Source: a virus. Taken from it: a stretch of DNA of 32,328 nucleotides. Within the stretch, counting starts at the first letter, position 1. Each line of letters begins with the position of its first letter. The DNA is taken from IMG/VR virus record IMGVR_UViG_3300048592_000365, positions 1 through 32,328 of that record, one strand, 5' to 3'. A program made the translations under genes and the position numbers. The notes below the pieces were generated by a model. That model was not told where the DNA came from. It was given only the letters and a program-made list of their open reading frames with translations, and ran no database searches. Positions 1,730 through 28,337 of the stretch are shown here, in pieces.

Positions 1730-3358
1730 ATGACCGACCGCAACTCCAGATACCGCGATTACCGCGAGCAAGCCGATGGGGCGCATCCACCGGCCAAGGA
1801 GTTGTCGTCGGCGCTTCGACCGAATTTGGCGAAGCTGATGGATGAGAACGACCGGCTGCGAGCGGAGCGGGACAGCTACCGCGCTTGGTCGTGGGGCGGC
1901 TGGCTGGTTGTAGCGTTTGCGATTTTGATGCTGGTTGCTGATGCGGCGATGGGGGCCGACCCGCTCAACGACGCCCTACGCGACGCCGCTGGCCACTCCG
2001 TCACCTACCACGGCACGCCGCTTTACATCAGCCTGTACGACATTCCCGCCGACAAGCGAGCGCAGGCAATCGACGCCATCGCTTTCGCCGCTCACCACAT
2101 GAGCCATAGCGGTGTGCCGGTGCGCCCGGTGCGCGTCAGTGATATTTGCGTGATGCTGCCGGCCGAACAGTACGACCCGTTCAACAAAGGTTGGCTGTCG
2201 GCATGGTCGAAAATCAACGATCCGCGCTATTCAGCATTCGCCTACGAGTACCAATTTGTCAACGAGCGATTACACGTTTCGTCGGTCGTCATCAACGGCG
2301 ATCGGTGCTCGTTTGTCTGCAAGGGACATTCCTACGCCAATGTGGCCGCCAAGCATCTCGTCAAGTGCGAAGTGCGAGCTTACGGCCCCTGGATTGATTC
2401 TGCTGCCGCTCAACTGCTTTACGAGCGCACCGGCTACGACATGGTGACGGCGAGCGAGTTTGTCGCGCAGGCGTGTGTTGCGCCCCTCTACTACGAATTC
2501 ACGGCGGCACCCAAAACCCTGGCCGAATTTCTCGGCATCAAATCGCATTCGGCATTCGGGCTGGCAGGCGCTCGCGGCGCAAACCTGGACGAATCAGGCG
2601 TCACCGGCACGCAGCGCGGCACCGAAGCCTACGAAGATTACTTGCTCTCGTTCGACATCGACAAATCGCAATTGCTGACACCGGAGCGCGATGTTTTCGG
2701 CCTGCCAGACCGCACGAACAAGAGCGACGCTTACGAGGCATTCAAGATCGGCACGGGCGGGCAAGCCTACACGTTCATCGCTGGCGGCAATCAGGCGCGG
2801 GTTGAGAACGGCATCGTTCCCGGTCAAATCGCCCTTGATTACTCCCACGGCAACCGCGTTATCTACGTTGGTCTAGGCTGCTGGTCGTGTCACTTCGCGC
2901 GGGCAGGCAACGCCGAGCAAGGCGGCTACATCGAACATCAGCACAGCAACGGCATTCCGTCGGCCAAAGACAAGATTGCGGCGGCGCAGATCGGTGCGTA
3001 CTACGGCGACCAACGGCGGCGCGAGCGTGACGGATTGCGGCATCGCGAAGATTGGTACGAAGCCAGCAGGCTCGCGTGCGACGGTGCGGAACCAAGCGAT
3101 TGCGTCGATGCCCTGAATTGGATGTTCGACCAGGTGATGATTTCGCCGGTGACGCCAACGCGAGCTTGCATCGAACTTTGCTTGGCGGTGGATGCCGACA
3201 GCACGCCAGAGGCAACGCTCACCCAATGGCTCAAAGGCGTGAGCAACGACGCCCTAGGCCAGCTTGCCAAGGGTGAAACAGTCAACCCGCAACGCTTCCG
3301 CCAAGCCCTGCCGCTCGCTCTTTCGCACATCAGTTATGCCCGGAGGTTCGCCAAGTGA
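1730..3358 (+). CDS. Membrane-anchored protein with a c-type haem motif (CWSCH)
   Basis: 542 residues. A charged coiled N-terminus (about 1-50) is followed by one membrane segment (about 54-74, WSWGGWLVVAFAILMLVADA); the rest should lie outside the membrane. Near residue 384 there is a haem c attachment motif, C384-W-S-C387-H388, inside GLGCWSCHFARAG. The preceding block (about 340-380) resembles the region that leads into CMSCH motifs in planctomycete cytochrome-domain proteins; that similarity is recalled, not searched. Covalent haem would need the host cytochrome c maturation system in the periplasm. The stop overlaps the start of a second CxxCH protein by 4 bases, so the two are probably translated together and may exchange electrons. 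A non-haem role for the Cys pair cannot be excluded. Finding such a gene among phage genes is unusual. Confidence 0.7.
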   Translation: MTDRNSRYRDYREQADGAHPPAKELSSALRPNLAKLMDENDRLRAERDSYRAWSWGGWLVVAFAILMLVADAAMGADPLNDALRDAAGHSVTYHGTPLYISLYDIPADKRAQAIDAIAFAAHHMSHSGVPVRPVRVSDICVMLPAEQYDPFNKGWLSAWSKINDPRYSAFAYEYQFVNERLHVSSVVINGDRCSFVCKGHSYANVAAKHLVKCEVRAYGPWIDSAAAQLLYERTGYDMVTASEFVAQACVAPLYYEFTAAPKTLAEFLGIKSHSAFGLAGARGANLDESGVTGTQRGTEAYEDYLLSFDIDKSQLLTPERDVFGLPDRTNKSDAYEAFKIGTGGQAYTFIAGGNQARVENGIVPGQIALDYSHGNRVIYVGLGCWSCHFARAGNAEQGGYIEHQHSNGIPSAKDKIAAAQIGAYYGDQRRRERDGLRHREDWYEASRLACDGAEPSDCVDALNWMFDQVMISPVTPTRACIELCLAVDADSTPEATLTQWLKGVSNDALGQLAKGETVNPQRFRQALPLALSHISYARRFAK

Positions 3359-3864
3359 AATCGCTCATCGCCGCAATTCTCGTTCTCGCGCTGCCGCTCA
3401 CCGCCCTAGCCGGAAACCCGTCCTGCAAAGTGCAGGCGGTGCAAAAGGTCGTGGTGCAAAAGCAAGTGGTCGCGTATCCCGTTTACGCACAGCAGTACTA
3501 CTACGCGCCGGTAGGGGCGAACTACGCCAGCTACAAGACGCAAGACGAATTGACCGCCGCCGCCCTCGACCGGCTCAACGTGACGATTCGCGAGGCTCAG
3601 GGCTTGCCCGCAACAGCGCTGGCTTCCACGGACATCGGCGGAATCTTGCAGAAGTGCGCCAAATGCCACGGCTACGACAAGCAAGCTGCCGACCACTGGA
3701 CGCTTGACCCATCGGCACCGCTTGACGCTTCGGTGGCTGCTTACGTTGGTCGCGGCCTGCGCAACGGCATGAGCGAGAAAGCCAAGCTGACCGACGCCGA
3801 GCAGGATGCGCTGTTTGGCTGGTACGAAGACATCGCGTTTAGCAATCTCACCAAAGGAGAGTAA
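3355..3864 (+). CDS. Secreted mono-haem cytochrome c-like protein
   Basis: 169 residues. Residues 1-19 are a clear signal peptide ending in ALA before GNPSC. A Val/Gln/Tyr-rich segment follows (about 27-60, with VVVQKQVV and QQYYY), probably a flexible surface region. The cytochrome c fold follows: haem attachment C101-A-K-C104-H105, a candidate axial Met139 in LRNGMS, and a C-terminal helix (LTDAEQDALFGWYEDI) typical of class I cytochromes. It would be exported and haem-loaded outside the cytoplasm and carry single electrons. It overlaps the upstream CWSCH gene by 4 bases and is followed after 2 bases by another signal-peptide gene with the same VVVQ repeat style, so the three form one transcription unit. 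The electron partner is unknown. Confidence 0.8.
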   Translation: MKSLIAAILVLALPLTALAGNPSCKVQAVQKVVVQKQVVAYPVYAQQYYYAPVGANYASYKTQDELTAAALDRLNVTIREAQGLPATALASTDIGGILQKCAKCHGYDKQAADHWTLDPSAPLDASVAAYVGRGLRNGMSEKAKLTDAEQDALFGWYEDIAFSNLTKGE

Positions 3865-3866: not shown

Positions 3867-4190
3867 ATGCGTTCCCTACTCGCAATTCTGATTCTCGCAG
3901 CGTGTGCCTCAATGGCTCATGCTCATGGCGCGGCGCAGGCGTTTTGCGGCGGCGCTCAACAAGTCGTCGTGCAACAGCAAGTCGGCCACGTTCAGCAGTT
4001 CACTCAACCCGTTGTCGTTCAACGCCAGTTCGTGCAACCCGTCGTCGTTCGCCAGCGATTCGTTCGCCAACGCGCTTTCGTGCAGCCAGTGTTCGTGCAA
4101 CGGCAATTCGTTGGTCGTCGTGCGTTTCTCGGCGGCCGCGGATTCATCAACAACACGAATCAGTTCGGGCTTATCAACATCGGTTTCTAG
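3867..4190 (+). CDS. Secreted Val/Gln/Phe repeat protein
   Basis: 107 residues with a signal peptide (1-19, cleavage after AHA). The mature part is low-complexity and built of repeats such as QPVVVQRQF, QPVVVRQRF and QPVFVQRQF (about 32-85), rich in Arg and Gln, then a Gly/Asn tail. The start is set by AAAGGAG 8 bases upstream. The same VVVQ style occurs in the preceding cytochrome, which suggests a shared location outside the cell, possibly a basic or adhesive surface protein. No enzymatic motif is visible. I do not recognise a named family. Confidence 0.7.
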   Translation: MRSLLAILILAACASMAHAHGAAQAFCGGAQQVVVQQQVGHVQQFTQPVVVQRQFVQPVVVRQRFVRQRAFVQPVFVQRQFVGRRAFLGGRGFINNTNQFGLINIGF

Positions 4191-4716: not shown

Positions 4717-4908
4717 ATGAAGATCGGCGAAGTGCGATTTGAGGATGGCGAGTGCATTCAGGGGTGGAACCCACAGGCAATGTCGCCAGCGATTCGCAAG
4801 CAAATTGCAACGGAGCTTGAGGATATTGCGAGCCACATGCGCAGAGGCAAGTTTCGTGAGGGCGAAAAGTACGTTACGCGACCATACAAAAAGAAAGCGA
4901 GAGCATGA
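4717..4908 (+). CDS. Small basic protein of unknown function (63 aa)
   Basis: 63 residues with a TAAGG-type ribosome site just upstream. Residues 24-50 form a probable helix (AIRKQIATELEDIASHMRRG), and the end is strongly basic (YKKKARA), so nucleic-acid contact is possible. No known family. Its stop overlaps the start of the Acb2-like gene as ATGA, so the two are probably made together. Confidence 0.55.
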   Translation: MKIGEVRFEDGECIQGWNPQAMSPAIRKQIATELEDIASHMRRGKFREGEKYVTRPYKKKARA

Positions 4909-5105
4909 ACGAAGAACGAATGTTGAAGTGGTTTGCGTACTCGCATCTGCCAGAGCATTTGCAGGCGCACTCTAAGCCGTTCGGCGAACTTGCTGAACAC
5001 ATCGTAAATTCTGTCTCGCCTGGACCTGAACGCACGGTAGCTCTGCGAAAGCTGCTTGAGGCAAAAGATGCGGCGGTACGCGCGGCCCTCAATCCTGGCG
5101 GCTGA
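4905..5105 (+). CDS. Acb2/Tad1-like helical hairpin protein, candidate anti-CBASS/anti-Thoeris sponge
   Basis: 66 residues. The pattern FAYSHLPEHLQ (10-20), then SKPFGELAEHIV (23-34), then PGPERTVALRKLLEAKDAAV (39-58) matches a widespread small phage family that I associate with the Acb2/Tad1 hairpin domain. Known members bind cyclic oligonucleotides or cyclic ADP-ribose variants and so blind host CBASS or Thoeris defence. Two helices joined by a Pro-Gly turn are predicted from the sequence. Y12 and K24 are candidates for ligand contact, by analogy only. The location in a run of tiny non-structural genes fits an anti-defence role. The family assignment is from memory; biochemical activity is inference. 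Confidence 0.6.
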   Translation: MNEERMLKWFAYSHLPEHLQAHSKPFGELAEHIVNSVSPGPERTVALRKLLEAKDAAVRAALNPGG

Positions 5106-5686: not shown

Positions 5687-5902
5687 ATGAAGTGGTCAAG
5701 CTCGACAATCATCACGCTCATCATCGTGGCCGCTTCGGTCGTGGGGAGTTATGCCGTCGCGCAGTACCAAATATCAGAGCTGCGAGGCGACGTGCAGAAG
5801 CTGCAAGAGCAGCGGGATATTGACCGGGAATCGCTGATTGAAATGCGGGCTGATGTTCGCTGGATTCGACTGACACTAGAGCGGAACGGACTGAAGCCAT
5901 GA
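5687..5902 (+). CDS. Small membrane-anchored coiled-coil protein
   Basis: 71 residues: one N-terminal membrane span (about 7-25, IITLIIVAASVVGSYAVA), then a charged coiled coil (about 30-62, ISELRGDVQKLQEQRD). This layout is common in small phage proteins near lysis genes (holin or spanin-like accessory proteins) but is not diagnostic. The ribosome site is weak. The stop overlaps ATG 5899. Confidence 0.6.
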   Translation: MKWSSSTIITLIIVAASVVGSYAVAQYQISELRGDVQKLQEQRDIDRESLIEMRADVRWIRLTLERNGLKP

Positions 5903-5970
5903 TGCCCACCTACCTAGCCCGCAAGTTCGCTAACCGCTTCGAGGTGTACGAGCACAACACCCTAGCGTGA
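5899..5970 (+). CDS. Possible 23-residue micro-ORF
   Basis: ATG 5899 overlaps the previous stop (ATGA) and encodes 23 residues starting MMPTYLARKFANRF. The same 12 bases ATGCCCACCTAC open the micro-ORF at 4474. Its end overlaps the left arm of an inverted repeat. It could be a leader peptide or a remnant of a longer gene. Confidence 0.3.
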   Translation: MMPTYLARKFANRFEVYEHNTLA

Positions 5971-5999
5971 CGGCGTGGAATGGCTGAAACAAGCTAGGG
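5960..5999. repeat. Perfect 7-bp inverted repeat CCCTAGC/GCTAGGG
   Basis: CCCTAGC (5960-5966) and GCTAGGG (5993-5999) are perfect complements separated by 26 bases. They span the stop of the 23-residue micro-ORF, 38 bases before the next GTG start. It may be a protein-binding operator or an mRNA stem controlling the downstream ribosome site. The stem is short and the loop long, so this may be chance. Confidence 0.3.
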
Positions 6000-6037
6000 C
6001 ATAACAAATCAGCCCGTGCGGCTGCGGAGGTGAGGTG

Positions 6038-6169
6038 GTGACATTCTTCTGGTTTGTAATCTGGCCGATTCTCACGCTTATCGTGGGCTACGGCATGGGC
6101 GTATTGAGCGCGAAAACCAACAACGTGGCGGACGCGATTCAGCGGTATGTGGAGCGGAATCGGAAATGA
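6038..6169 (+). CDS. 43-residue single-span membrane peptide with GTG start
   Basis: GTG 6038 has a strong ribosome site (GGAGGTGAGG). Residues 3-22 form a membrane span (FFWFVIWPILTLIVGYGMGV), followed by a short cytoplasmic or periplasmic tail ending ERNRK. The stop overlaps the start of the next gene as ATGA, which supports its reality. Function unknown; the topology would suit a small holin-like or regulatory membrane peptide. Confidence 0.6.
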   Translation: MTFFWFVIWPILTLIVGYGMGVLSAKTNNVADAIQRYVERNRK

Positions 6170-6579
6170 TCTTCACCATAGCAATCATCGCTCTCTGCAT
6201 CATCCCGCCCGACGAGGCAACGGGCGTGGTGTGTGATGAGGTAAGCGTGATTGAGAAGAACGCATTTTTTGACGACGCCGGGCGGCATGTATTCGACCAG
6301 TTCGTGTTTTGGCGCAAGGGCGAAGAACGACCGTTTGACGTATCCGACTGGCGACTAGCAAAGGGGCAATCAATCACGCGAGACTTCGCCCGCAACCGCT
6401 GGACGATGACTTGGCATGACGGACAAGTAACGCGGCGAGTTGAGGCGCGAATGTATCGCGAAACTTTTCGGCAATACGACATCGAATTGACAGAGCGTGA
6501 CCACCTGCCGAAAGAGCGCAGATTGACACTACTAAAACTCCGCGAGCAGCCGCACGTTAGCGATTTGGAAACCCCGTAA
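6166..6579 (+). CDS. Conserved-looking hypothetical protein with hydrophobic N-terminus
   Basis: 137 residues. Residues 1-14 (MIFTIAIIALCIIP) look like a short membrane anchor or weak signal. The body contains many Trp and charged residues (VFWRKGEERPFDVSDWRLA, then RNRWTMTWHDGQ), suggesting a beta-rich domain, and ends in a helix. I do not recognise the family. It starts inside the preceding micro-gene stop and is followed immediately by the next ATG. Confidence 0.6.
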   Translation: MIFTIAIIALCIIPPDEATGVVCDEVSVIEKNAFFDDAGRHVFDQFVFWRKGEERPFDVSDWRLAKGQSITRDFARNRWTMTWHDGQVTRRVEARMYRETFRQYDIELTERDHLPKERRLTLLKLREQPHVSDLETP

Positions 6580-7062
6580 ATGCCACTACGACGTTTCACC
6601 ATCGACCCGCCTTTCGCCCATCAGCCCGGCGATACGTTCGTGCGCGTCGGCAACACGTACAAGCAGATTCGCGCGGGAGTGGAAATCGACAGCCGCACCA
6701 TCGCAGCCCCCGCCATCCTCACCGATCAATTTCACTTTGGTACGAACAGCGTCACGGAACTTTTAGAGGAGTTTCACATGCCAGGCCAGAACGTCAGTTG
6801 CACTCGTGTTCAAGAGAACCAAACAAGCGGCGCGATCACGTTCTACTTTTCGAGCGGCAACGCAATTGAGTATGTCGATTGGGCGGCAGTCGGCGCGGTC
6901 GCTGACGAAATGGATGCTGCGCCCGACATTGCCGAGAAGTTGTTGGCGATGAAGGCGTATCGCGCCTCGCCCGATGGCGCGAACAAGACCACGCAAGTCG
7001 GCGCTTCGATCAGCGTTAACGGACTCGCTGACACCCCAGTTGTCTACACGGAACCACAGTAA
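6580..7062 (+). CDS. Hypothetical phage protein, 160 aa, with a likely internal start
   Basis: The frame opens at ATG 6580, directly after the previous stop, with a weak ribosome site. An in-frame ATG at 6778 has a much better site (AGAGGAG, 6-base spacing) and would give a 94-residue product starting MPGQNVSC. The N-terminal 66 residues (FAHQPGDTFVRVGNTYKQIRAG) look like a compact beta domain. The C-terminal part contains a helix (AEKLLAMKAYRASPDG) and may be structural. It lies just upstream of tail-fibre-like genes and overlaps the next start by one base. Function unknown. Confidence 0.6.
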   Translation: MPLRRFTIDPPFAHQPGDTFVRVGNTYKQIRAGVEIDSRTIAAPAILTDQFHFGTNSVTELLEEFHMPGQNVSCTRVQENQTSGAITFYFSSGNAIEYVDWAAVGAVADEMDAAPDIAEKLLAMKAYRASPDGANKTTQVGASISVNGLADTPVVYTEPQ

Positions 7063-7304
7063 TGGCGAGCATTCGCAACATCGAGCGGCGCGGGGATAAG
7101 ACATATCTCCGCTACGGCAAGACGGAAATCGAAGTTAGCGGCGGCATGCGCGGCCTGCGCGAGTGGGTGCGCGACAACCAGCCGACCGACGAGCAGGCAA
7201 TCGCCATGATCCTCAAAGAGCACTTCAAGAGCGATGCGGACGCCCGCGACCTCTCGCCGCTCAAAGGTCGTGAACTCGCTGTTGCGGTGAAGGAGGCAGG
7301 CTAA
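7062..7304 (+). CDS. Small hypothetical protein (80 aa)
   Basis: 80 residues: an N-terminal beta hairpin (RNIERRGDKTYLRYGKTEIEV), a Gly-Gly turn and a helical half (REWVRDNQPTDEQAIAMILK). It overlaps both neighbours by one base (TAATG). No family is recognised. The position just before the first tail-fibre-like gene suggests a structural or chaperone role, which is weak inference. Confidence 0.55.
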   Translation: MASIRNIERRGDKTYLRYGKTEIEVSGGMRGLREWVRDNQPTDEQAIAMILKEHFKSDADARDLSPLKGRELAVAVKEAG

Positions 7305-8380
7305 TGGCTGACGCACTTTATTCCACACCGTTTGGCGGCACTGACCGTGGTGCAAGTACAACGGTTCTGAATCACACCTTGGACGCCAACAACGACGGAC
7401 TGGCGTTCATTTTTCAGACAGACTCCGCCGACGCCATTACACACCTGGGCTTTCGCTACGGTGCGCGAACCGGCACGCCACCCACTTATATCATTGGCCT
7501 AGAGGGCGTAGACGCATCAACCGGCAACCCCGATGGAACGTATCTCGGCGGCGGCACCCCGGCATCATCGACATTTACGCCGCCTGCCGATGCAACATGG
7601 GATGGGCTATGGAAATGGGAGGCTCTTGATAATTCCTACACACCAACTCGCGGCCAGCTAATGGCGCTGACGATTCGCTACAGCAGCGGCACCGTGGATG
7701 GAAGCAACTTTTCGACATTCACCCGCAATAGCAGTGTTGCTGCAAGTATCGTAAGTCTCCCCTACGCCAACACGCTCACTGGCGGCACATGGGCAAAGCA
7801 AATTGGCCAATGCTTCGGCTATCGCACGGCAAGCGGTCGTCACGGCATCATCGCTCAAAGTGTGTACTCGACCACTGAAAGTACATCCGGCAACCGACAG
7901 GCAATGCACTTCACGTTGCCAAGTGGCCACGGCGACACGTTCACTGTGCTTGGAATGCGCGGGGCGTTCCGGCTGCCGTCCGGCTCGATGATTCTCGGCC
8001 TATGGGACGCGGCAGGGTCGGTCATTCAGTCGATCACGCTCGACACCGACAAGTTCAACACCTTCAGCCCACCGCAAGCGGGACGCATCACGTTCGACGA
8101 AGCCAGCCTTACGGCGCTGAACTTTGGCACCAAATACTACATCGGCTTCGAGAGCGTGTCGTCATCGGCTGTCGGAATCGCAGGTATCCAACTTGCCGAA
8201 GCGGCAGACCGCCACGCCTACCCCTACGGCGAGAGTCGCGGGCTATCGACTTGGAACGGCTCAGCGTGGACGGATGACGATACCGTGCTGCCGATCTTGG
8301 ACATTGTGCTTGGGGATATCACGGAGCCGAGCGGGGGTGGTGCGGTATTCATGCCTCGTGCAATCCAAGTGGGGCTATAA
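7304..8380 (+). CDS. Tail-fibre-like virion surface protein
   Basis: 358 residues, rich in Gly, Ser, Thr and aromatic residues, with no catalytic motif. The sequence is strongly beta-type, with repeated short strands (ALTIRYSSGTVDGSNFSTF, then GTKYYIGFESVSSSAVG) as in phage fibre or receptor-binding jelly-roll domains. A good GGAGG lies upstream, inside the preceding gene. The next gene, 3 bases on, is also tail-fibre-like. Assignment is by composition and context, not by a defined domain. Confidence 0.55.
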   Translation: MADALYSTPFGGTDRGASTTVLNHTLDANNDGLAFIFQTDSADAITHLGFRYGARTGTPPTYIIGLEGVDASTGNPDGTYLGGGTPASSTFTPPADATWDGLWKWEALDNSYTPTRGQLMALTIRYSSGTVDGSNFSTFTRNSSVAASIVSLPYANTLTGGTWAKQIGQCFGYRTASGRHGIIAQSVYSTTESTSGNRQAMHFTLPSGHGDTFTVLGMRGAFRLPSGSMILGLWDAAGSVIQSITLDTDKFNTFSPPQAGRITFDEASLTALNFGTKYYIGFESVSSSAVGIAGIQLAEAADRHAYPYGESRGLSTWNGSAWTDDDTVLPILDIVLGDITEPSGGGAVFMPRAIQVGL

Positions 8381-8383
8381 GCA

Positions 8384-10024
8384 ATGCTGTTCAAAAACAC
8401 GGCCAGCCAGAAGATTCACGTTTACGCCTACGACTCGACCACGGGCGCGGCGAAAACGGGCGATGCTGCGAACATCACGGGCTATGTCTCGCTCGATGGG
8501 ACGGCGAACGCCATTGACGATACGAACCCCACGGAAGTCGATGCGACGAACATGCCGGGCGTTTACGCTTTCGACTTGACGCAGGCAGAAACCAACTGCA
8601 ATGCGTTCGCGCTCTACGCCAAGAGCGCCACGGCGAATATTCGGCTAGAACCGATCATTGGTTTCACGACGCCAACGAACCTGAAGAGTGCCATCGACAA
8701 CTACTCGGCGACCCGTGGGCTTGCTGGCACGGCCCTCCCCAATGCAGCCGCCGATGCGGCGGGCGGCTTGCCAATCAGCGATGCTGGCGGGCTTGACCTT
8801 GATACGCAACTTGGAAAGCTCGTCGGCACCCTAGCCAGCGGCACGCACAATCCACAGAGCGGGGATGCGTATAGCCGTATCGGGGCGACGGGTAGCGGGT
8901 TGACTTCGCTGGCCAGCAACGCCGATATGGCAACGCTGCTTGGCCGCCTAACCGCAACCCGCGCCGGCTACCTCGACAACCTCAACACTGGCGGCACAGT
9001 CGCATCACAATCCGACATCAACGCCCTGAATCAATCAGCCTCGCGCCGCGTGATTCTCACGACCGTCGGCCAGTATGAACGGCCCGACACCGGCACCGTT
9101 GGCTACACGATCGAAGCACGCACGTACGACGGCGATGGCGCGGCAGTCGATGCCGACAGCACGCCAACACTCACGGCAACCGGCAGCGTTAGCGGAAGCC
9201 TCGCGGCGAATCTCGGCAGCGCAACCAATCCCGCAACGGGCGTCTATCGCTGGACGTACACCGTCGATGATGCGGCGGGCTTGGAGCAAATCCGCTTTGA
9301 CCTCTCGGCGGTCATCGGGAGCGCCACATTCCCAATGTCGGTCTACACACAGACCACCGATGCCGTCAAAGCCGATTTCACGACCAGCGACCGCAGCAAC
9401 CTGGAGGCCATCGTCAACAAGCTGCCGAGTCGTGATTACCTGGCTGGCACCGATCAATCGACGGGGGCGATCGACGCGAGCGATAAGATGGGGTACGAGT
9501 TGGTCAGTGCGTACGACGCGGCCAAGACGGCGGCCAGCCAAACCAGCGTGGACGACATTCCGACCAATGCGGAGTTTGCTGCTGCATTCCCCGCCAACTT
9601 CGCCGCACTGGGCATTGATGTGACCGGCGCAATCGAGCATGTGATTCTCGTTGATACGACGACTGAGAACACCGATATGCGCGGGACGGACGGGGCCGCT
9701 ACGCAGGCGAGCGCCGACGCTGACCACGATGCTACGCAGGCTGCGGTTGCCGCATTGAACAACCTGGCCGCCGGCGCCGCCATGACGCTGACCAGTGGCG
9801 AACGTACAGCTATCGCCGATGCAATTCTCGACCTAGCCAACGGCATTGAAACAGGTAAGACGCCCCGCCAAGCATTGCGACTCATGGCCGCAGCACTCGC
9901 TGGCAAGCGAACCAACGCAGGAACATCGACCGAACAATACGATGCGATTGGCAACGTCGGTACGGCTCGCATCGTGATTGACGCAGACGAGGACGGCAAC
10001 GGTACGCCGGTACTAACACCATGA
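8384..10024 (+). CDS. Large tail-fibre or baseplate-like protein with Ig-like segments
   Basis: 546 residues. The N-terminal domain (1-95, KIHVYAYDSTTGAAKTGD, then GVYAFDLTQAET) is of a type I recall from phage tail-fibre or baseplate proteins. Residues about 100-175 are a Gly/Ala-rich linker (GGLDLDTQLGKLVGTLASG). Residues about 225-330 form an Ig-like beta module (GYTIEARTYDGDGAAVDADS). The C-terminal module (TPRQALRLMAAALAGK onward) is common at the ends of phage structural proteins. It likely forms part of the adsorption apparatus. Its stop overlaps the start of the small repeat protein. Confidence 0.6.
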   Translation: MLFKNTASQKIHVYAYDSTTGAAKTGDAANITGYVSLDGTANAIDDTNPTEVDATNMPGVYAFDLTQAETNCNAFALYAKSATANIRLEPIIGFTTPTNLKSAIDNYSATRGLAGTALPNAAADAAGGLPISDAGGLDLDTQLGKLVGTLASGTHNPQSGDAYSRIGATGSGLTSLASNADMATLLGRLTATRAGYLDNLNTGGTVASQSDINALNQSASRRVILTTVGQYERPDTGTVGYTIEARTYDGDGAAVDADSTPTLTATGSVSGSLAANLGSATNPATGVYRWTYTVDDAAGLEQIRFDLSAVIGSATFPMSVYTQTTDAVKADFTTSDRSNLEAIVNKLPSRDYLAGTDQSTGAIDASDKMGYELVSAYDAAKTAASQTSVDDIPTNAEFAAAFPANFAALGIDVTGAIEHVILVDTTTENTDMRGTDGAATQASADADHDATQAAVAALNNLAAGAAMTLTSGERTAIADAILDLANGIETGKTPRQALRLMAAALAGKRTNAGTSTEQYDAIGNVGTARIVIDADEDGNGTPVLTP

Positions 10025-10245
10025 GCAAGAGATTATTTGCAACGAGGATGTTTGCTGGGCGATTATTCGCGCCGGCGCTGTTTCGCGGTACGGGTGCGGC
10101 CAGCGTCGAACCGCAACCTGGTTGCCTCGCAATCAGCGATTCGGCCAAGTGGAATGTCTGCGTTTCCGATCGAGCGAAATTCAATGTGGCCGTAAGTGAC
10201 GCGGCGAAATTCGATTGTGCGGCCAGCGATAGCAGGTGCAACTAA
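10021..10245 (+). CDS. Small two-repeat protein (5- and 10-residue repeats)
   Basis: 74 residues made of two repeat blocks. Residues 3-22 repeat a 5-residue unit (KRLFA, TRMFA, GRLFA, PALFR) that would form a basic amphipathic segment. Residues 39-68 hold three 10-residue units of the form SDxAK(W/F)(N/D)xxx. Such a periodic beta design could add to a fibre or trimerise. It overlaps the upstream fibre-like gene by 4 bases and the next gene by one base, so it is likely virion-associated. Function unknown. Confidence 0.55.
   Translation: MSKRLFATRMFAGRLFAPALFRGTGAASVEPQPGCLAISDSAKWNVCVSDRAKFNVAVSDAAKFDCAASDSRCN
10135..10224 (+). repeat. Three 30-bp coding repeats (SDxAK[WF] units)
   Basis: Residues 39-68 of the small repeat protein are three in-frame 30-bp units. 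The protein repeat is clearer than the DNA repeat, which suggests selection on the peptide rather than recent duplication. Confidence 0.6.
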
Positions 10246-10550
10246 TGAGCGACGGATATAACACGCACGACCTGGGCGATCTTGTGCCAGTGCGCGGGCA
10301 TTTCACAACCGCGGCCGGCGTCGACCAAGATCCCGACGTGGTGAAGGTTTCGATTCGTCGGCCCAGCGGCAGCATTAACACCTACACCCATGGCGATGGC
10401 GCCGAAGTCGTGAAGGACTCAACCGGCCACTATCACTTGGACGTCAACTGCAATGCAACGGGCACTTGGCATTATCGCTGGTGGTCGACAGGCGACGGGC
10501 AAGCGGCGGAAGAGAAGATGTTTAAGGTTCGTGGGGCGCGGGCAGTTTAG
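10245..10550 (+). CDS. Ig-like phage structural protein (101 aa)
   Basis: 101 residues from ATG 10245. The pattern YNTHDLGDLVPVRGHFTT, DPDVVKVSIRRPSG, then GTWHYRWWSTGDGQAAEE is typical of small single-Ig-domain phage proteins encoded near head and tail genes. A GTG at 10236 would add three residues; the ATG fits better with AGCAGG upstream. It immediately precedes the small terminase gene. A decoration or joining role is plausible. Confidence 0.6.
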   Translation: MSDGYNTHDLGDLVPVRGHFTTAAGVDQDPDVVKVSIRRPSGSINTYTHGDGAEVVKDSTGHYHLDVNCNATGTWHYRWWSTGDGQAAEEKMFKVRGARAV

Positions 10551-10621
10551 GAGATTCTGTAATTGCGAAGTCAAGACGAAAGCCGCCGAAGCAAGAGCTG
10601 CTGCCGCCCGATCCGGCGGGC

Positions 10622-11170
10622 GTGTGGAGCCCTGCGCTGCCGTCGCCAACTTTCGATCCATCGACCGCGCTTACCGAGACGCAGCAGGCCGTACTTATTG
10701 CACTGGCCGAAACCGACAGTATCACGCAATCGGCGCGGCTGGCCGGAACGCAAAGGCAGCGGATTTCCGAATGGCGATCGTCCAGTGAGTTATTTGCAGA
10801 GGAAGAAAAGCGGGCTTACGAGTTTTATAAGGATCGACTGCGGGCCGAAATTCGCCGGCGAGTTTTTGAGGGACAGCGAAAGCTGGTGCTCGATCGGAAC
10901 TCCAGGCCAGTTTTTATCAACGTCAGTGCGGATGGTGAGGTCGTGCCCGAGGGCGATCCGCGTGCGGTAAAAAAAGTGGCTCTTTGGGAGACTAAAAAAA
11001 GCGACAACATGCTGATGTTCGAGGCGAAAAAAACGATGCCGGAATACAGAGACAACCCCAAAGTAGTCATCAACCAAAACGGGGCTGGTGGAACGGAAAT
11101 TACGCCCGATCAAATCGTACTGGCGATGGATGGGACAGTGCCGAGTGAGCCTGAGGAAAATGAAGCATGA
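10622..11170 (+). CDS. Terminase small subunit
   Basis: 182 residues from GTG 10622. A helix-turn-helix lies at about 20-52 (QQAVLIALAETDSITQSARLAG, then RISEWRSS) and would recognise viral DNA for packaging; the rest is helical with an acidic end. The best ribosome site (AGGAG 10549-10553) is not next to this GTG. The frame stays open upstream, and AGGAG sits 8 bases before an ATT at 10562, which would add 20 residues including a basic segment (KSRRKPPKQ). The true start may therefore be the rare ATT. The partner large subunit is displaced to 28334. The ATGA overlap with the next gene indicates coupling. Confidence 0.75.
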   Translation: MWSPALPSPTFDPSTALTETQQAVLIALAETDSITQSARLAGTQRQRISEWRSSSELFAEEEKRAYEFYKDRLRAEIRRRVFEGQRKLVLDRNSRPVFINVSADGEVVPEGDPRAVKKVALWETKKSDNMLMFEAKKTMPEYRDNPKVVINQNGAGGTEITPDQIVLAMDGTVPSEPEENEA

Positions 11171-11598
11171 GTAGTTCATCCGATTGCATCGCCTACGCCG
11201 AACGGGCCGACGTCGAAATTGTCTATGGACGAACCAACGTCGAGAAATGGGCATCACTGGATAACGACCAGGATGAGGAACAAATCGGCGACCGCATCAC
11301 ATGGGCGTGCTGTCTCGCAACCGAACGACTCAACAACGACCTACGCAACGGGCCGTATGAAATTCCATTTTTAGAACCATGCCGCGAAGTCGTCGACCTG
11401 ACAGCGCGACTGGCCGGCACAATCCTTTACGACTCACGAGGAATTACCGACACAAATACTGACGGCAACCCGATGGATAACCTTGCAGTTCACCGCCGTT
11501 TCGTTAAGAATAGAGTGGTTGAGATTTGTCAAGGTCGTGTGCGGCTGAATCACACAGAGAAAGCCGTGTACTATCCTCAGGTTGCTTCCGACGATTAG
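11167..11598 (+). CDS. Mu gp36-like head-tail joining protein (DUF1320 type)
   Basis: 143 residues starting MSSSSDCIAYAERADVEIVYG. The layout (start with an Ala/Asp helix, DRITWACCLATERLNNDLR, then an acidic middle, a hydrophobic LTARLAGTILYDSRG helix and a basic end) fits the phage gp36/DUF1320 family that helps join head and tail. It overlaps the terminase by 4 bases. It is the last gene before a 157-base structured gap. The family assignment is moderately sure. Confidence 0.6.
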   Translation: MSSSSDCIAYAERADVEIVYGRTNVEKWASLDNDQDEEQIGDRITWACCLATERLNNDLRNGPYEIPFLEPCREVVDLTARLAGTILYDSRGITDTNTDGNPMDNLAVHRRFVKNRVVEICQGRVRLNHTEKAVYYPQVASDD

Positions 11599-11755
11599 TG
11601 ACTGACTAGGAAGAAACCGGGGGCCGCGCGAAGTGATTCGTGCGAGCCTTGGCAAAGGCAGGGCCGGCCAGCCCTCACCAGATGCCTTCAACGTCGAGCC
11701 TTTGAAGGGGGTTCGTGCGATTCGTCGCGCGTGCCCCCTTTTTAATTTACTCGAC
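11599..11755 (+). ncRNA. Structured intergenic leader with mutually exclusive stems, possible attenuator
   Basis: This gap lies between the gp36-like gene and MuF. Two structures compete. The terminator hairpin uses 11705-11740. An alternative 12-bp stem pairs 11619-11630 (GGGGGCCGCGCG) with 11726-11738 (CGCGCGTGCCCCC), with one bulged T, and would consume the 3' arm of the terminator. A local stem GCCTT/AAGGC (11647-11651 with 11656-11660) and the 9-base direct repeat TTCGTGCGA (11638 and 11712) add structure. This is the layout of an antiterminator/terminator switch controlling the head operon. No known riboswitch consensus was recognised. The reading is inference from base pairing only. 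Confidence 0.4.
11705..11743 (+). terminator. Intrinsic (rho-independent) terminator before the head operon
   Basis: AAGGGGG (11705-11711) pairs with CCCCCTT (11734-11740); an inner stem CGTGCG/CGCGCG (11714-11719 with 11726-11731) has a 6-base loop. TTTTT (11739-11743) then AATTT follow. This is the best terminator in the window. It sits only about 12 bases before the MuF start, so expression of the head genes needs read-through, antitermination or a promoter I could not find. Confidence 0.65.
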
Positions 11756-12721
11756 GTGAAGAAAAACGACACTCACCGCACCGCCCGCATCATCGTCGCC
11801 GAGCTACACAAGCTCGAGGTGCGCGGTGCTCGCCGCGCTCGCGAATTGTCGGCCCGCATTCAGTCGGGTGTTATCGGCTCGTTCCGCCGCAAGCAAACCC
11901 CGCAGTTTGCCAATCGGTTCATTGAGCTAATGCAGCCGGTGCTGGCCGAAACGATGACGGCCGCCTATCTCACCGGCGCGCGCCGCAGCGAACTCACCCT
12001 CTCTGGCCGCATTCAGCCGCGGTTGATCGTCCAGGGTGGTGGCGACGGCGCAGCCCTTTCCGACGGGCTCGCTCTTGGCATTTTCGATAAGACGTTGAAG
12101 TTCTTGCGTCGCATCCTGGACGCCGATCTTCCGACGATCGAAGCTCAGGCCGAAACCCAAGCCTTTCGTGCTTTGCGCGGCGAATCAGCCACGGCGGAAC
12201 GCGAAGTTCAGCGAGTCGTCCAGCAGCTTATCGCCGAGGGCTCGCACGTCCGCAACGGCATCGACGTGTTGCGCGAGACGTTCGCCCGTCTGGGCCTGTC
12301 GCCACGCAGCGATTGGCGGCTGGAAACCATCTTTCGCACGCAAACGCAGCTTGCCTATGGCGCCGGCCGCTACGAAGCCTACAGTGACCCCGCCGTGGAC
12401 GAAATTCTGTGGGGCTACGAATACACGACCGCCGGCGATGATCGCGTGCGACCCTCGCACGAAGCCATGGATGGTGTTCGCTTTCGCAAAGACGATCCGC
12501 GGCTAAATCAGTGGTGGCCGCCGAACGGCTGGAACTGCCGCTGCCAACTCATCCCGATTTTTGTTGATGACGAAGCCAACTTGGCATCGCCGCGCGAGCC
12601 CGAGCCCATGCCCGATGGCTTCGCCCCGCAGCCTGATCGCGGCTTTGCCTTCAATCCATCGCTGGCCATCGCTGGTCGAGTGACCGTGAAGAAACCCGCC
12701 GAACCAATCCTTGCGCCATAG
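11756..12721 (+). CDS. MuF-like minor head protein (SPP1 gp7/Mu gpF family)
   Basis: 321 residues from GTG 11756. The C-terminal signature of phage head morphogenesis proteins is clear (about 195-268): TQTQLAYGAGRYEAY, DDRVRPSHEAMDGVRFRKDD, then WWPPNGWNCRCQLIPI. The N-terminal 190 residues are helical and probably contact the portal. The frame is open back to 11633, but that part crosses a strong terminator and structured region, so the later GTG is preferred even though it lacks a good ribosome site. It acts in the capsid near the portal vertex. The protease/scaffold gene follows in 7 bases. Confidence 0.85.
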   Translation: MKKNDTHRTARIIVAELHKLEVRGARRARELSARIQSGVIGSFRRKQTPQFANRFIELMQPVLAETMTAAYLTGARRSELTLSGRIQPRLIVQGGGDGAALSDGLALGIFDKTLKFLRRILDADLPTIEAQAETQAFRALRGESATAEREVQRVVQQLIAEGSHVRNGIDVLRETFARLGLSPRSDWRLETIFRTQTQLAYGAGRYEAYSDPAVDEILWGYEYTTAGDDRVRPSHEAMDGVRFRKDDPRLNQWWPPNGWNCRCQLIPIFVDDEANLASPREPEPMPDGFAPQPDRGFAFNPSLAIAGRVTVKKPAEPILAP

Positions 12722-12728
12722 GTGAAGC

Positions 12729-13853
12729 ATGACCATCGACATCGAACAACTCATCTTCATCACGCCCGACGCCGAGCATCCCGGCGCGTGGTTGCGGCCG
12801 TTGGGCCTGGATGAATTCAAAGCGGACGAAGCAGCCCCGCTCAATTTCCGCAAAGAGTTGATCTATGCCGGCGAGCTCACGCTGCAAGACCACAACGGCA
12901 AGCGATTCAGCCGCCGCATTGAACGGGCGATGCTCGAGCATTGGGCGAAAACCGACAACGCCCTGATTGCCAACGGGAATGAAGTCCCTTTGCCGGTTGG
13001 GCATACGAAAGACCCGGCGGCCAAAAAGGGAACGATTATCAAACTGGCCGTTGAAAAGAACAGCCGCGGCGGCGATGCACTCTTCGCCTATGGACGGTTC
13101 AACGATGCCGAGGCGGCTAAGGCTTATGGCAAAGCACAAGTTTCGATTTGGGTGGACCCCAAGCATGTGGACGGCGCCGGCAACGAATACGTCAGCCCGA
13201 TCCGCCACGTTGCCCTAACGGATTACCCGATCATCCCAAAACTCGACAAGTTCGAGGCGATGCCGGCGATTGCCGCGTCGCTGTTATCGCCCCCTGTCAC
13301 CCCCAAGGAGTCCGACATGAACATTCGCGAACTCGCGAAGAAGGTTGGCGTGAAGCTGACCGACGAAGAAAAGGACGAGGCGATCAGCGAGAAGCTGGCC
13401 GCGCACGTCGAAGGCATGAGCACTCGCCTGAGTGAGTTTGAAAAGGCGAAGGCAAAGGCCGACAAGGAAACGGCCAAGGAAACCGAGCCACCAAAGAAAA
13501 TCGCCGCGGGCCTGCTTGGCATTCTCCGCGATAACCGCGAACTGAAACTCGCCGGCCTCGTGAAAGACTGCAAGATCACGCCGGCGGTGAAGGACGAACT
13601 CGCCAAGCAGTTCTGTAGCGATGACGCGCTGTCGCTCGCCCTGGCCGACGACGGCAGCACCAAAGCCGACGGCTTCGATACCGTGCTTTCGGCGCTTACC
13701 AAGAACGAAGCGGTTATTTCGATGAAGGAAAAGACCGGCGCTCAAACCTTGGGCGAACTTTCCCTCGCCGATGAATCGCTGAAAAAAAGCGGTGACGAAT
13801 CGCCGCTCGTGAAGAACGCCGAAGCGCGGGCCAAAGCGGCCACCAGCAAGTAA
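12729..13853 (+). CDS. Mu gpI-like prohead protease fused to scaffold
   Basis: 374 residues. The protease part (about 1-190) carries VPLPVGHTKDP with candidate catalytic His92, then AQVSIWVDPK with candidate Ser139, then SPIRHVALTDYP (156-167). This is the serine-type prohead protease arrangement of Mu gpI-like proteins. After a Pro-rich joint (SPPVTPKES) the rest is a charged coiled scaffold region (TRLSEFEKAKAKADKETAKE). A strong ribosome site inside the gene drives a separate scaffold product from 13317. The protein would shape the procapsid and then cut the scaffold before DNA entry. It lies between MuF and the decoration/capsid genes, the standard place. Confidence 0.85.
   Translation: MTIDIEQLIFITPDAEHPGAWLRPLGLDEFKADEAAPLNFRKELIYAGELTLQDHNGKRFSRRIERAMLEHWAKTDNALIANGNEVPLPVGHTKDPAAKKGTIIKLAVEKNSRGGDALFAYGRFNDAEAAKAYGKAQVSIWVDPKHVDGAGNEYVSPIRHVALTDYPIIPKLDKFEAMPAIAASLLSPPVTPKESDMNIRELAKKVGVKLTDEEKDEAISEKLAAHVEGMSTRLSEFEKAKAKADKETAKETEPPKKIAAGLLGILRDNRELKLAGLVKDCKITPAVKDELAKQFCSDDALSLALADDGSTKADGFDTVLSALTKNEAVISMKEKTGAQTLGELSLADESLKKSGDESPLVKNAEARAKAATSK
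13317..13853 (+). CDS. Nested scaffold protein from an in-frame internal start
   Basis: ATG 13317 is in frame within the protease gene (Met197) and is preceded by AAGGAG at 6-base spacing, the best ribosome site in the region. It would give 178 residues of scaffold only, starting MNIRELAKKVGVKL. This mirrors Mu I/Z and lambda C/Nu3, where the assembly scaffold is made in excess from the protease frame. The site is seen in the sequence; the role is known for the families. Confidence 0.8.
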   Translation: MNIRELAKKVGVKLTDEEKDEAISEKLAAHVEGMSTRLSEFEKAKAKADKETAKETEPPKKIAAGLLGILRDNRELKLAGLVKDCKITPAVKDELAKQFCSDDALSLALADDGSTKADGFDTVLSALTKNEAVISMKEKTGAQTLGELSLADESLKKSGDESPLVKNAEARAKAATSK

Positions 13854-13908
13854 CCAATCCCGCGGCCACGACCGCTTTTCTAATCAAACACACTCGGAGT
13901 TTTGAACC

Positions 13909-14325
13909 ATGACCACGACTCTTACCAAGCCTCGCACTGAGGGCGACGTTGTTATTCGGAATTTCGATCCCGAATACTGCTACGACTCGGTGACGATCAC
14001 CAACAACAGCGGTGCGGAGCGGGATTTCGTTCCCGGTACGCCGTTTAACGAATCGGGCGGCACTTGGGATCCGACCCAAGATACCGAAGAGGCGAGCATT
14101 GACGGCATCCTGGTGGAGCATGTCAAAGGGCTCGCCAACAACGGTACGAAGGTGGTGCGGATGCTCGTTCGCGGGCCAGCCGTGCTTAACCGCGACGCCC
14201 TGCCGACGGTGGACTACACCAACACGGCTTTCAACCTGGCGACGGTCGCCACGCGATTGCTGGCACTCTCCCCGCCGATCATCTGCCGCCGCGAACCGAC
14301 CAAGGTTAGCCAGCAGACCACGTAA
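13909..14325 (+). CDS. Head decoration protein (lambda gpD-like)
   Basis: 138 residues, beta-rich, with the layout of capsid-stabilising decoration proteins encoded just before protein E: DVVIRNFDPEYCYDSVTITNN at the N-terminus, GTPFNESGG, a central DGILVEHVKG, then KVVRMLVRGPAVLNRDALP. It would bind the outside of the capsid at three-fold sites after expansion. CGGAG lies 11 bases before the ATG. The 55-base gap upstream has only a short 4-bp stem and no clear promoter. Confidence 0.75.
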   Translation: MTTTLTKPRTEGDVVIRNFDPEYCYDSVTITNNSGAERDFVPGTPFNESGGTWDPTQDTEEASIDGILVEHVKGLANNGTKVVRMLVRGPAVLNRDALPTVDYTNTAFNLATVATRLLALSPPIICRREPTKVSQQTT

Positions 14326-14395
14326 TTTCCCTAGTTCACTTTGACTCAATCCATTTCGGGGCGCGGCGGCGCTTACCAACCACAAGGAATCGGAA

Positions 14396-15427
14396 ATGCT
14401 AGACGTTTTCAATACCGACGCCTTCAACATGGTGTCGTTGACGACCGCGCTCAACAAGCTGCCCCATGTTCCCATGCGCATCGGGCAGATGAACTTGTTC
14501 ACGCCCAAGGGCATCACGACCCGCACGCCTGTCATCGAAGAGCGACACGGCCGCTTGTCGTTGCTGCAGACGAAGGCGCCGGGCACGCACGACCAGGTGT
14601 GGCGTTCGAATGATCGCACCGCCAAGGCGTTCAACGTGCCTTACATTCCGCTGGATGCCGAAGTCAAGGCTTCGGACGTCGCCGGCGTGCGAGCTTTCGG
14701 CAGCGAAACCGTGCTGGAAACGGTCGCCGGCAAGGTGAACGACGTGCTGCAGGAAGCCCGCAATTCGTTCGAGGCGACGTGGGAATTCCATCGCGTCAAG
14801 TCGCTGCATGGCCAATTGGTCGACGGCGACGGCTCGACGGTGCTCTACAACTGGTTCACCACGTTCGGCGTTACCGAAACGGTTGTCGCGTTCAACTTCG
14901 ACAATGCGAATCTGCCGATCACTGACAAGGCTCTGGCCGTGCATCGCGCGATCGAAGACGCCTTGGGTGGTACGCTGTTCACGGGCGTTCACGCCATCTG
15001 CGGCAACGACTTTTTCGACGCCTTCATCAAGCATCCGATGGTGAAGGATGCGTGGGACCGTTGGCAGGATGGCGCGTTCCTCCGCACCGTCAATCGCCCG
15101 CTGGGCGGCAGCGGTGGCGGCTTCAATATGTTCGACATCACCTGGGAAAACTATCGCGGTGCGATTGGCGGGACGAAGTTCGTCGCCGACAACGAGTGCC
15201 GGTTCTTCCCGACGGGCGTTTCGAACCTGTTCGAAGTTTATTACGCGCCCGCCGACTGGACGGAGACGGTCAACACGACTGGCCGCCCGCTCTACGCCAA
15301 GCAAGAGCGCAAGAAGTGGGACGAGGGCATCGACCTGCACATGCAGTCGAACCCGCTCCATATCTGCACCCGGCCGGCGTGCCTCATCAAGGGCGAAATG
15401 GGCGAAGGTTCGTCGAGCGCGTCGTAA
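14396..15427 (+). CDS. Major capsid protein (lambda gpE family)
   Basis: 343 residues, the usual length for protein E. Recognisable features are an N-terminal arm (LDVFNTDAFNMVSLT), the LTPKGI-like FTPKGITTRTPVIEE segment, VPYIPLDAEVKASDV, the ARNSFEATWEFHRVKSLHG helix, and the C-terminal VYYAPADWTETVNTTGRPLYAK block typical of the family. It forms the HK97-fold icosahedral shell. It ends in a Ser-rich tail (GEGSSSAS) that is unusual and resembles tails on two other virion proteins here. AAGGAATCGGAA precedes the ATG. No proteolytic pro-segment is obvious. Confidence 0.9.
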   Translation: MLDVFNTDAFNMVSLTTALNKLPHVPMRIGQMNLFTPKGITTRTPVIEERHGRLSLLQTKAPGTHDQVWRSNDRTAKAFNVPYIPLDAEVKASDVAGVRAFGSETVLETVAGKVNDVLQEARNSFEATWEFHRVKSLHGQLVDGDGSTVLYNWFTTFGVTETVVAFNFDNANLPITDKALAVHRAIEDALGGTLFTGVHAICGNDFFDAFIKHPMVKDAWDRWQDGAFLRTVNRPLGGSGGGFNMFDITWENYRGAIGGTKFVADNECRFFPTGVSNLFEVYYAPADWTETVNTTGRPLYAKQERKKWDEGIDLHMQSNPLHICTRPACLIKGEMGEGSSSAS

Positions 15428-15501
15428 GTCGTGCGGTCGTAGCGTTTTGGCGAGTCGCACAGTGCCTCTCGCTTGCACAGAAACCATCGGGAGAGTTTTT
15501 C

Positions 15502-15909
15502 ATGTCGCATCTACAGCAATCGACGTTCGAAGTGGACAAGTCCGGCGGCGGATTGATGCTGCTTTGGCGAGAACTGTCGGCCATCGGTGCTTTCGCCCGC
15601 AACGACAGCGGCAAGTCGCTGACGATCATTTGCCCGAGCAACGTGATGCGCGGGGCTCGCGAGTTGATCGAGAAGTACAGCTACCCCGAGAACGTCACCG
15701 CAGACAACGCCGGCGGTCGCAGCGACGACTTGCCGAATTACGACGAAGATCCACCCGAGCCGCAACGTGAGGAAGTTGCCGCCGACGATTCGCCGGTGGG
15801 AAGTGAAGGGCCGACGGCTGGACCCGACGATCCAACCACCCTGGACGAATCGCCCGAGGAAGCCCCGCGTCGCAATCGTCGCGTCCGCAAGGAAGCCGCT
15901 GCCGAATAA
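15502..15909 (+). CDS. Probable head-tail protein with acidic disordered tail
   Basis: 135 residues from ATG 15502 with GGGAGAG upstream. Residues 1-60 are a compact helical/beta part (TFEVDKSGGGLMLLWRELSA, then KSLTIICPSNVMRGARELI). Residues 70-120 are acidic, Pro-rich and probably disordered, and the end is basic (RRNRRVRKEAAAE). A longer upstream reading overlaps the capsid gene in another frame and is rejected. It lies between the capsid and gpG-like genes, a position used by head-completion proteins, but I do not recognise the family. Confidence 0.6.
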   Translation: MSHLQQSTFEVDKSGGGLMLLWRELSAIGAFARNDSGKSLTIICPSNVMRGARELIEKYSYPENVTADNAGGRSDDLPNYDEDPPEPQREEVAADDSPVGSEGPTAGPDDPTTLDESPEEAPRRNRRVRKEAAAE

Positions 15910-16475
15910 TGACCACCATTTCCGCCACCGTTCGCGTTGATCTTCGACCCCTGCAGCGTTTTCGCGCGCAGGTGGATCGGGATTTGCGCGGCAGTGGCAA
16001 TGGTCCGATTCGGCAAGCGTTGAAGCAATGGGCGGTTCGCTACATGACGTTTATCCAGCGTCGGTATCGCGCGAACTCGCGCGGGGCTGGAGAGTGGCCA
16101 GATTTGGCAGAGTCGACCAAGCGACGACGGCGCGGGCCGCGACGCGGGAGAGGCGGAGCTCGCAAGTTTTCCATCCTCATCGACACGGGAACACTGTTCG
16201 CCGCGACTGATCCTATCTTCCAACGCAAGCCCGGCCAGCTACAGGACGACATTCCATTCGGCGTGCGCGTCGGATTTGGTGGGCCGGCAGGGCATCCAGG
16301 TGGGCGAGCAACCATCGCGGACATCGCCAGCTTTCACCAAACCGGCGCGGGCCGACTTCCGCGCCGCGAAATCCTTGTTCCGCCGACGGAAACGGTCATG
16401 CGGCAGATGGGCAGTGACATGAGCCGCGCTGTCTCGCGCATGATCGGCGAAACCGGAAACGGAGGTGGTTTGTGA
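15909..16475 (+). CDS. Phage virion morphogenesis protein (Mu gpG/tail completion type)
   Basis: 188 residues. The family pattern is visible: an N-terminal helix (QALKQWAVRYMTFIQRRY), a basic stretch (TKRRRRGPRRGRGG), LIDTGTLFAAT (90-100), then IASFHQTGAGRLPRREILVPP (139-159). This is the tail-completion/gpG layout, where the protein connects the neck to the tail. It overlaps the preceding stop by one base (TAATG) and the next start by 4 bases. Confidence 0.75.
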   Translation: MTTISATVRVDLRPLQRFRAQVDRDLRGSGNGPIRQALKQWAVRYMTFIQRRYRANSRGAGEWPDLAESTKRRRRGPRRGRGGARKFSILIDTGTLFAATDPIFQRKPGQLQDDIPFGVRVGFGGPAGHPGGRATIADIASFHQTGAGRLPRREILVPPTETVMRQMGSDMSRAVSRMIGETGNGGGL

Positions 16476-25342: not shown

Positions 25343-25359
25343 TTCTCCCGATGCTGGGT

Positions 25360-25395
25360 CCGGTGGCGGTGGATTCCGCCAGCCATCGCCGCCGG
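25360..25395. other. 12-bp intercistronic hairpin
   Basis: Bases 25360-25371 pair with 25384-25395 (two G-U pairs) around a 12-base loop, and three more G-C pairs extend it after a bulged T. No T tract follows, so it is probably an mRNA stabiliser or translation control element between the fusion enzyme and the next glycosyltransferase. Confidence 0.4.
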
Positions 25396-25423
25396 CCCGG
25401 CTCGTGGGGAGGTTTCGCTCACC

Positions 25424-28115: not shown

Positions 28116-28337
28116 ATGCCACTGCAACCCATCCCCCTGGACGGCATGCGCACGCCTGCGGAAATTCAGGCGATCAAGCGCGAACATTGCTGGCAGTGCC
28201 CGCTGTGGAAGTGGATCGGCGTGCCCGCGCGACGCAATCGCGGCTGCACCAAGCATCGTATTTGCGAGCGGTTTGATCGGACGGCCAGTATGTTTCGCGT
28301 TGGGCGATGCCCTGAGAAGAAATGGGGCTGGCAATGA
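28116..28337 (+). CDS. Small Cys-rich zinc-binding protein
   Basis: 73 residues with Cys at 25, 28, 44, 50 and 65 and His47, in the form CWQC...C-T-K-H-R-I-C...C. This could bind one zinc ion or a metal cluster. It is rich in Trp and Arg. It overlaps the large terminase start and may be co-expressed with packaging genes, but could equally belong to the glycan cassette. No family recognised. Confidence 0.6.
   Translation: MPLQPIPLDGMRTPAEIQAIKREHCWQCPLWKWIGVPARRNRGCTKHRICERFDRTASMFRVGRCPEKKWGWQ

Follow-up and report, generated by a model that had tools for sequence, protein, structure and literature searches.

c-type cytochromes require host export and covalent haem attachment, and they are very rarely encoded by phages. 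Multihaem genes have been reported for Borg elements. We asked whether two neighbouring genes with haem-attachment motifs in a phage genome fragment encode c-type haem proteins, whether they belong to the phage, and what a phage might gain from them. The genes lie in IMG/VR virus record IMGVR_UViG_3300048592_000365 (G000), a linear sequence of 32,328 nt that represents a partial genome; the whole of it is referred to below as the window.

The haem genes and their phage surroundings

The two genes are on the + strand at positions 1730-3358 and 3355-3864 and overlap by 4 bases. The first has an ATG start and encodes 542 amino acids with a CWSCH haem-attachment motif at residues 384-388 (positions 2879-2893). 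The second begins with GTG behind a GGAGG ribosome-binding site at the start codon at 3355 and encodes 169 amino acids with a CAKCH motif at residues 101-105 (positions 3655-3669). Both open reading frames, both motifs and the overlap are thus as originally predicted. By composition, about 0.04 CxxCH motifs would be expected in the roughly 9,990 predicted residues of the window. Two were observed, and they fall in neighbouring genes whose products are both of the exported type.

The 542-aa protein has a single hydrophobic segment (residues 57-76, positions 1898-1957, KD 2.0-2.2; best 19-residue window at residue 58, KD 2.16). The original prediction called this protein membrane-anchored. The segment itself was found, but Met37 within the reading frame is an alternative possible start, so the segment may be either a cleaved signal peptide or an anchor. 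The 169-aa protein has the expected signal-peptide-like N-terminus (KD 2.22), followed by a V/Q/Y-rich linker. Its only internal methionine, M139, lies downstream of CAKCH and remains the candidate axial ligand.

The claim of phage origin, which had been based on linkage to head and tail genes, held up well. TerL, portal and tape-measure-like genes are on the same strand as the haem genes, as are an E-type major capsid gene and a small terminase gene (10622-11170). The haem genes are preceded by a member of a phage protease family and an HNH gene of phage type, and they are followed by a phage-specific small gene (4905-5105, + strand; phrog_1761, E 1.2e-27) that anchors the block to the phage genome. 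The intervening genes are co-directional and lie close together, either separated by small gaps or overlapping by a few bases, and the GC and GC3 of the haem genes are uniform with the rest of the block. This packing, with phage-type genes on either side, makes a contig join at 4-5 kb unlikely.

The haem genes sit in a compact block on the + strand. Its first gene (1-609), which has lost its N-terminus at the contig end, encodes a trypsin-like (S64/Nal1-like) protease that matches phrog_20754 ‘protease’ (E 5e-15) and falls just under the Pfam cut-off for Peptidase_S64/Nal1_C. It is followed by an HNH endonuclease gene (625-1347; phrog_374, E 1e-71; TTG start uncertain), which is probably a mobile or homing insertion between the protease gene and the next one. 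That gene (1351-1725) encodes a small protein with an amphipathic or hydrophobic C-terminal helix (LVKLLLPLLMDLLAKWL), described here from its position and composition. After the haem genes comes a 107-aa V/Q/R-rich exported repeat protein (VVVQRQFVQPVVVRQ; 3867-4190) with a signal-peptide-like N-terminus and an AGGAG site. No relative of this protein was found in 246 Planctomycetota genomes.

Family and fold of the two proteins

The 542-aa protein had no match in Pfam, NCBIfam, or PHROGs. We scanned a species genome collection for DNA encoding NG[x]SCMSCHxxG and obtained fifty-eight loci, mostly from Planctomycetota but also from Myxococcota, Alphaproteobacteria, Poribacteria, and others. With a profile built from fifty-four proteins of these loci, the 542-aa protein obtained 34.8 bits (E 5e-13 at Z=1), and the best of 2000 shuffles reached 5.0 bits. 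The family alignment spans the APLYY/SGV region through CxxCH, and twelve of its columns are invariant across forty-two members, including Gly381, Cys384, Cys387, and His388. Judged by profile and alignment, the 542-aa protein is a very divergent homologue of large, secreted c-type cytochromes that make up an unnamed family, found mostly in Planctomycetota.

The bacterial proteins are 500-1500 aa long and combine an N-terminal PSCyt1 haem domain, a central domain with NG[LIV]SCMSCHxxG, for which there is no Pfam family, and variable C-terminal domains (FGE-sulfatase, TPR, LRR, SHD1). The phage protein shares the central domain, with the SGV/APLYY region and, at the domain's end, the invariant CxxCH. 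Unlike the bacterial fusions, to which it is about 20-30 per cent identical, it carries this domain as a stand-alone unit, and a separate monohaem gene follows. It has one CxxCH, and Pfam finds no PSCyt1 in the same polypeptide. Lacking that N-terminal domain, it is by architecture a homologue rather than a full family member. We thus describe it as a membrane-anchored or exported protein that, from its sequence, is a divergent member of the central-domain cytochrome family. The window copy stands on an extremely long branch of the family tree (length 6.9), with a top identity of 28 per cent.

An AlphaFold model of the 542-aa protein was of moderate quality (mean pLDDT 58), better past residue 225. 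It contains five strands and then the CxxCH helix, and for residues 254-433 the top VIA-align match (rank 1) was cytochrome c'-beta 7s5o, with similar strands and CxxCH helix but a Z of only 4.7 at 4.2 Å. The profile similarity is confined to the haem motif, with hhalign aligning nine columns to P460 proteins, at CxxCH only. A P460/c'-beta fold is a structural lead from this model and not an assignment to that group. Foldseek returned nothing from the PDB at E<=0.001, and a PDB sequence search gave no relevant match.

The evidence for the 169-aa protein is of another kind. It resembles class I cytochrome c, PF13442 (Cytochrome_CBB3), and PSCyt1 (PF07635) in having a signal peptide, one CxxCH, a downstream Met, and an LTxxE...W pattern in the C-terminal helix. 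It differs in that a long V/Q/Y-rich linker separates the signal peptide from the haem domain, and in its PF13442 score of 20.7 bits, which is below the curated cut-off of 27; nine shuffles that kept CAKCH also scored against PF13442, reaching 18.6 bits. Against a profile of the large-phage monohaem proteins described below, it did no better than such shuffles. Considered by itself, the sequence makes a class I cytochrome plausible. Its standing as a haem protein comes mainly from gene context, namely synteny with the CAQCH...MPP monohaem proteins of two other phages. The prediction of two c-type haem proteins is therefore borne out by profile homology for the 542-aa protein, while for the 169-aa protein it stands on architecture and synteny, with weak evidence from its own sequence. 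Modelling the 169-aa protein from its single sequence gave a structure of too low confidence to use (pLDDT 44). We also considered whether this protein derives from the PSCyt1 N-domain of the bacterial family through a split and swapped gene. It scored 10.8 bits against the N-domain profile, a value matched by 83 of 3000 CAKCH-keeping shuffles, and we do not claim such a derivation.

Direct searches found no close relatives of either haem protein in viral contigs, GenBank phages, or plasmids, and neither had a relative at E<=1e-7 in 392 Planctomycetota genomes. Within the collections searched, this supports the view that c-type cytochromes are rare in phages, with the proviso that the viral scans were pattern-based and miss divergent copies and that the bacterial side is one scan of a genome collection.

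The same gene order in other phages

Homologues in other phage contigs, which the original prediction had proposed to look for, were reached with a bacterial family member as the query against GenBank phages. This search led to LR756511.1, an uncultured phage of 595 kb that we take to be from the huge-phage study. It encodes two family members of 392 aa (120.7 bits) and 611 aa. The larger is membrane-anchored, carries CIVCH, and lies in a run of genes at about 481-486 kb. The order there is an exported Ig/thioredoxin-like protein, a papain-like protease (PF00112, E 0.003), a 149-aa protein, the 611-aa cytochrome, an exported 243-aa protein with a Y/V/P-rich linker and CAQCH...MPP, and an exported, V/A-rich 204-aa protein. 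The same six genes are present on a 187-kb contig, IMGVR_UViG_3300036766_002288 (L230), whose cytochrome is 60 per cent identical to that of LR756511. By overall genome type, both are unrelated to the window phage.

The order common to all three is protease, small protein, anchored cytochrome, exported CxxCH monohaem protein, and Val-rich exported protein. Two points count against full equivalence: the large phages have a papain-like rather than a trypsin-like protease, and the HNH gene, which they lack, interrupts the window copy. They also have the additional Ig/thioredoxin-like exported protein at the front. The cytochromes themselves are detectably related, with a BLASTP E of 7e-6 between the window and LR756511 proteins and an alignment score of 16.6 bits against 5.3 for the best of 2000 shuffles. 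The other cassette genes match by order, export signals, and composition, and their pairwise scores are not significant. The product of 1351-1725, for example, occupies the place of the 149- and 221-aa small proteins of the large phages. The 107-aa protein has the position and VVVxRxF repeats of their Val-rich last protein, with a pairwise E of 0.017 in low-complexity sequence.

A short motif sets the phage cytochromes apart. YISLYDIP in the window (positions 2024-2047, + strand) conforms to YISLY[ND][IV]P, which is found in all three phage cassette cytochromes and in none of fifty-seven bacterial members. This phage-only motif suggests a single phage lineage of the cytochrome gene and not separate captures, and on the strength of these sequences we argue for one lineage. 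CxxCH is kept in all three cytochromes and all three partner proteins, though most other positions have changed. Between LR756511 and L230, dN for the six genes is 0.24-0.47 while dS is saturated or 2.35, which indicates that the haem genes have been maintained under purifying selection in the large phages. Closer relatives did not turn up either in additional scans that used the protease, the capsid protein, or the 392-aa protein of LR756511 as the query. The gene for that 392-aa protein, located elsewhere in LR756511 (L196, 7228-9134), follows an exported C39-like peptidase gene, so that a haem protein and an exported protease are again paired.

The closest relative of the window phage, IMGVR_UViG_3300037478_000397 (G008), has the head and tail genes in common with it but not the left 10 kb, and no relatives of the haem proteins were found in the whole records of thirty terminase-related viruses. 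Several of these viruses do have a pre-terminase block with a small hydrophobic protein, an exported Ig/thioredoxin-like protein, and a papain- or trypsin-like protease, some of these assignments having been made by eye from translations. The G008 block, for instance, includes PF13365 and PF13098 matches. The exported payloads in the relatives are Cys-rich or thioredoxin-like and are not haem proteins. The block of exported genes thus seems to vary in its payload, with the haem pair as one version of it. Two related phages encode exported Cys-rich proteins at the cassette position (L004, 7653-8141, CLCDDCTCKDCKCKLC; L013, 5130-5612, CSCEKCDCAKCDGRCD).

A further viral family member has a different setting. 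The virus record L191, which is Poribacteria-like, carries a 1426-aa two-haem protein between tail genes. This protein groups with Poribacteria on the tree, which points to a recent capture. The two-haem cytochrome lies there in an insert of about 10 kb (5914-16785) that separates the tape measure from the tail genes beyond it and also encodes ParA, lipoproteins, and LRR/cohesin/dockerin proteins.

The host of the window phage is probably a planctomycete. This is suggested by the profile of the phage monohaem proteins, which matches PSCyt1-type cytochrome domains in Planctomycetota genomes, and by the cytochrome family being centred in that phylum. Against it, just 4 of the 392 Planctomycetota genomes contained relatives of the terminase, at no more than 37 per cent identity.

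Both the bacterial cytochrome family and the conserved multi-gene cassette go beyond the original prediction. We found no description of this haem cassette in the literature, and the main text of the huge-phage paper does not mention cytochromes.

Possible functions at the host envelope

That two far larger, unrelated phages carry the exported block with its gene order preserved makes the cassette look like a genuine, maintained viral tool for the host envelope and not stray bacterial DNA. We give a probability of about 0.55 to the reading that the haem pair belongs to a phage-borne exported cassette and carries out electron transfer at the host envelope, most likely for redox-assisted remodelling of the envelope or withdrawal of electrons from it. 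During infection, the host Sec system would export the cassette proteins and the host cytochrome c maturation machinery would attach haem. The small soluble monohaem protein could then exchange electrons with the larger anchored protein at the cell envelope. In bacteria, PSCyt1 and central domains are fused, which hints at joint action of the two haem domains, and the phage pair may stand in for this fused two-haem protein while serving the envelope-directed task of the cassette. A maintained pair, in a gene order common to an ordinary-size tailed phage and to phages of 187 to 595 kb, is more than a curiosity and gives a phage function that can be tested. It also points to an envelope-directed toolkit with a variable payload of cytochromes, thioredoxin-like proteins, or Cys-rich proteins.

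One could also read the cassette as a kit for lysis and release from a host whose wall is rich in protein and linked through cysteines. The protease would take a role similar to that of an endolysin, the small hydrophobic or amphipathic protein that of a holin, and the exported redox proteins would act on disulfides or the redox state of the wall. This idea draws on the combination of protease, membrane-active-looking small protein, and redox proteins in the cassette; proteases, small hydrophobic proteins, and exported redox or Cys-rich proteins recur before the terminase genes of the relatives, and none of the window genes scanned with Pfam came out as a peptidoglycan hydrolase. It also draws on a report that the planctomycete cell wall is made of proteins, including Cys-rich YTV-domain proteins (PMC8567305). 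Nevertheless, no cassette protein has a lysis annotation, an endolysin could sit elsewhere in a genome of which the window is a fragment, and there is no evident way for a c-type cytochrome to aid disulfide breakage. Many planctomycetes do make peptidoglycan, and the planctomycete host is itself only inferred. We regard such a kit as unlikely, though worth keeping in mind, and the broader proposal, that the cassette of these very different phages breaches or remodels a protein-based, disulfide-linked wall and achieves lysis or release without peptidoglycan hydrolases, as slightly less likely still. If the host is a planctomycete, how phages exit cells with a cross-linked protein wall becomes a question in its own right. 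The window does encode a small membrane protein with weak matches to Rz-like spanins (5687-5902, E 5e-4), which lies outside the cassette.

Envelope electron transfer has also to be set against a metabolic role, in which the pair would be an auxiliary metabolic gene set that keeps up or redirects periplasmic respiratory electron flow and so sustains energy during infection. Like auxiliary metabolic genes, the pair is encoded in a viral genome with hallmark genes and shows homology to host-type cytochrome genes, here secreted ones; as such genes, the two would have to yield active haem proteins that change host metabolism. There is also a precedent in phage-encoded SoxD, a c-type cytochrome subunit (PMC8190135). 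SoxD, however, acts in a defined thiosulfate-oxidation pathway, whereas the window pair is without a pathway partner and its neighbours, exported proteases, a Val-rich repeat protein, and a small hydrophobic protein, have no respiratory function. Moreover, the relatives swap the cytochromes for other exported proteins and not for other respiratory genes, and we consider this role rather doubtful. The extreme divergence of the window copy and the resemblance of the Val/Gln/Tyr-rich linkers to surface proteins could instead mean that redox function has been lost, leaving surface or superinfection-exclusion proteins with CxxCH as a relic. Such a loss is hard to reconcile with the retention of CxxCH in all three cytochromes and their partners and with purifying selection on both haem genes in the large phages, and we judge it very unlikely. 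Least credible of all is that bacterial DNA was joined to the contig by assembly error or is passenger DNA, as might be supposed from a cytochrome family that is bacterial and from terminase-found relatives without haem genes. The 4-base overlaps, continuous packing, uniform GC, and phage genes on both sides all speak against it, as do the lack of a close homologue among the 392 Planctomycetota genomes and the presence of the same cassette in two other phages. The original prediction had named bacteria-only homologues together with a join near 4-5 kb as grounds for abandoning a phage origin; what we found were phage homologues in the same gene order and closely flanking phage-type genes. A contig chimera was accordingly rejected on the basis of packing and GC, the phrog_1761 flank, and the cassettes in LR756511.1 and L230.

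Several other features lie elsewhere in the window. The gene order at 28116-30959 and 10622-11600 is unlike that of G008. A block of glycosyltransferase, TerL, and portal genes comes after the tail genes in the window, whereas in G008 it separates the small terminase gene from the head gene that follows. Given the natural short overlaps at the junctions, this displacement looks like a real rearrangement. Near the terminase, positions 24026-28114 hold a cluster of glycosyltransferases (GT25, PLOD-like, GT2) with a methyltransferase and a sulfotransferase-like domain, and several of these genes have relatives in G008. Proteins of the capsid and tail region (at 15427, 17047, and 22892) carry Ser-rich C-terminal tails (GEGSSSAS, ESSSSSA, EGSSS) that are possibly a shared C-terminal tag, and the product of 21753-22892 contains a long SSGS repeat.
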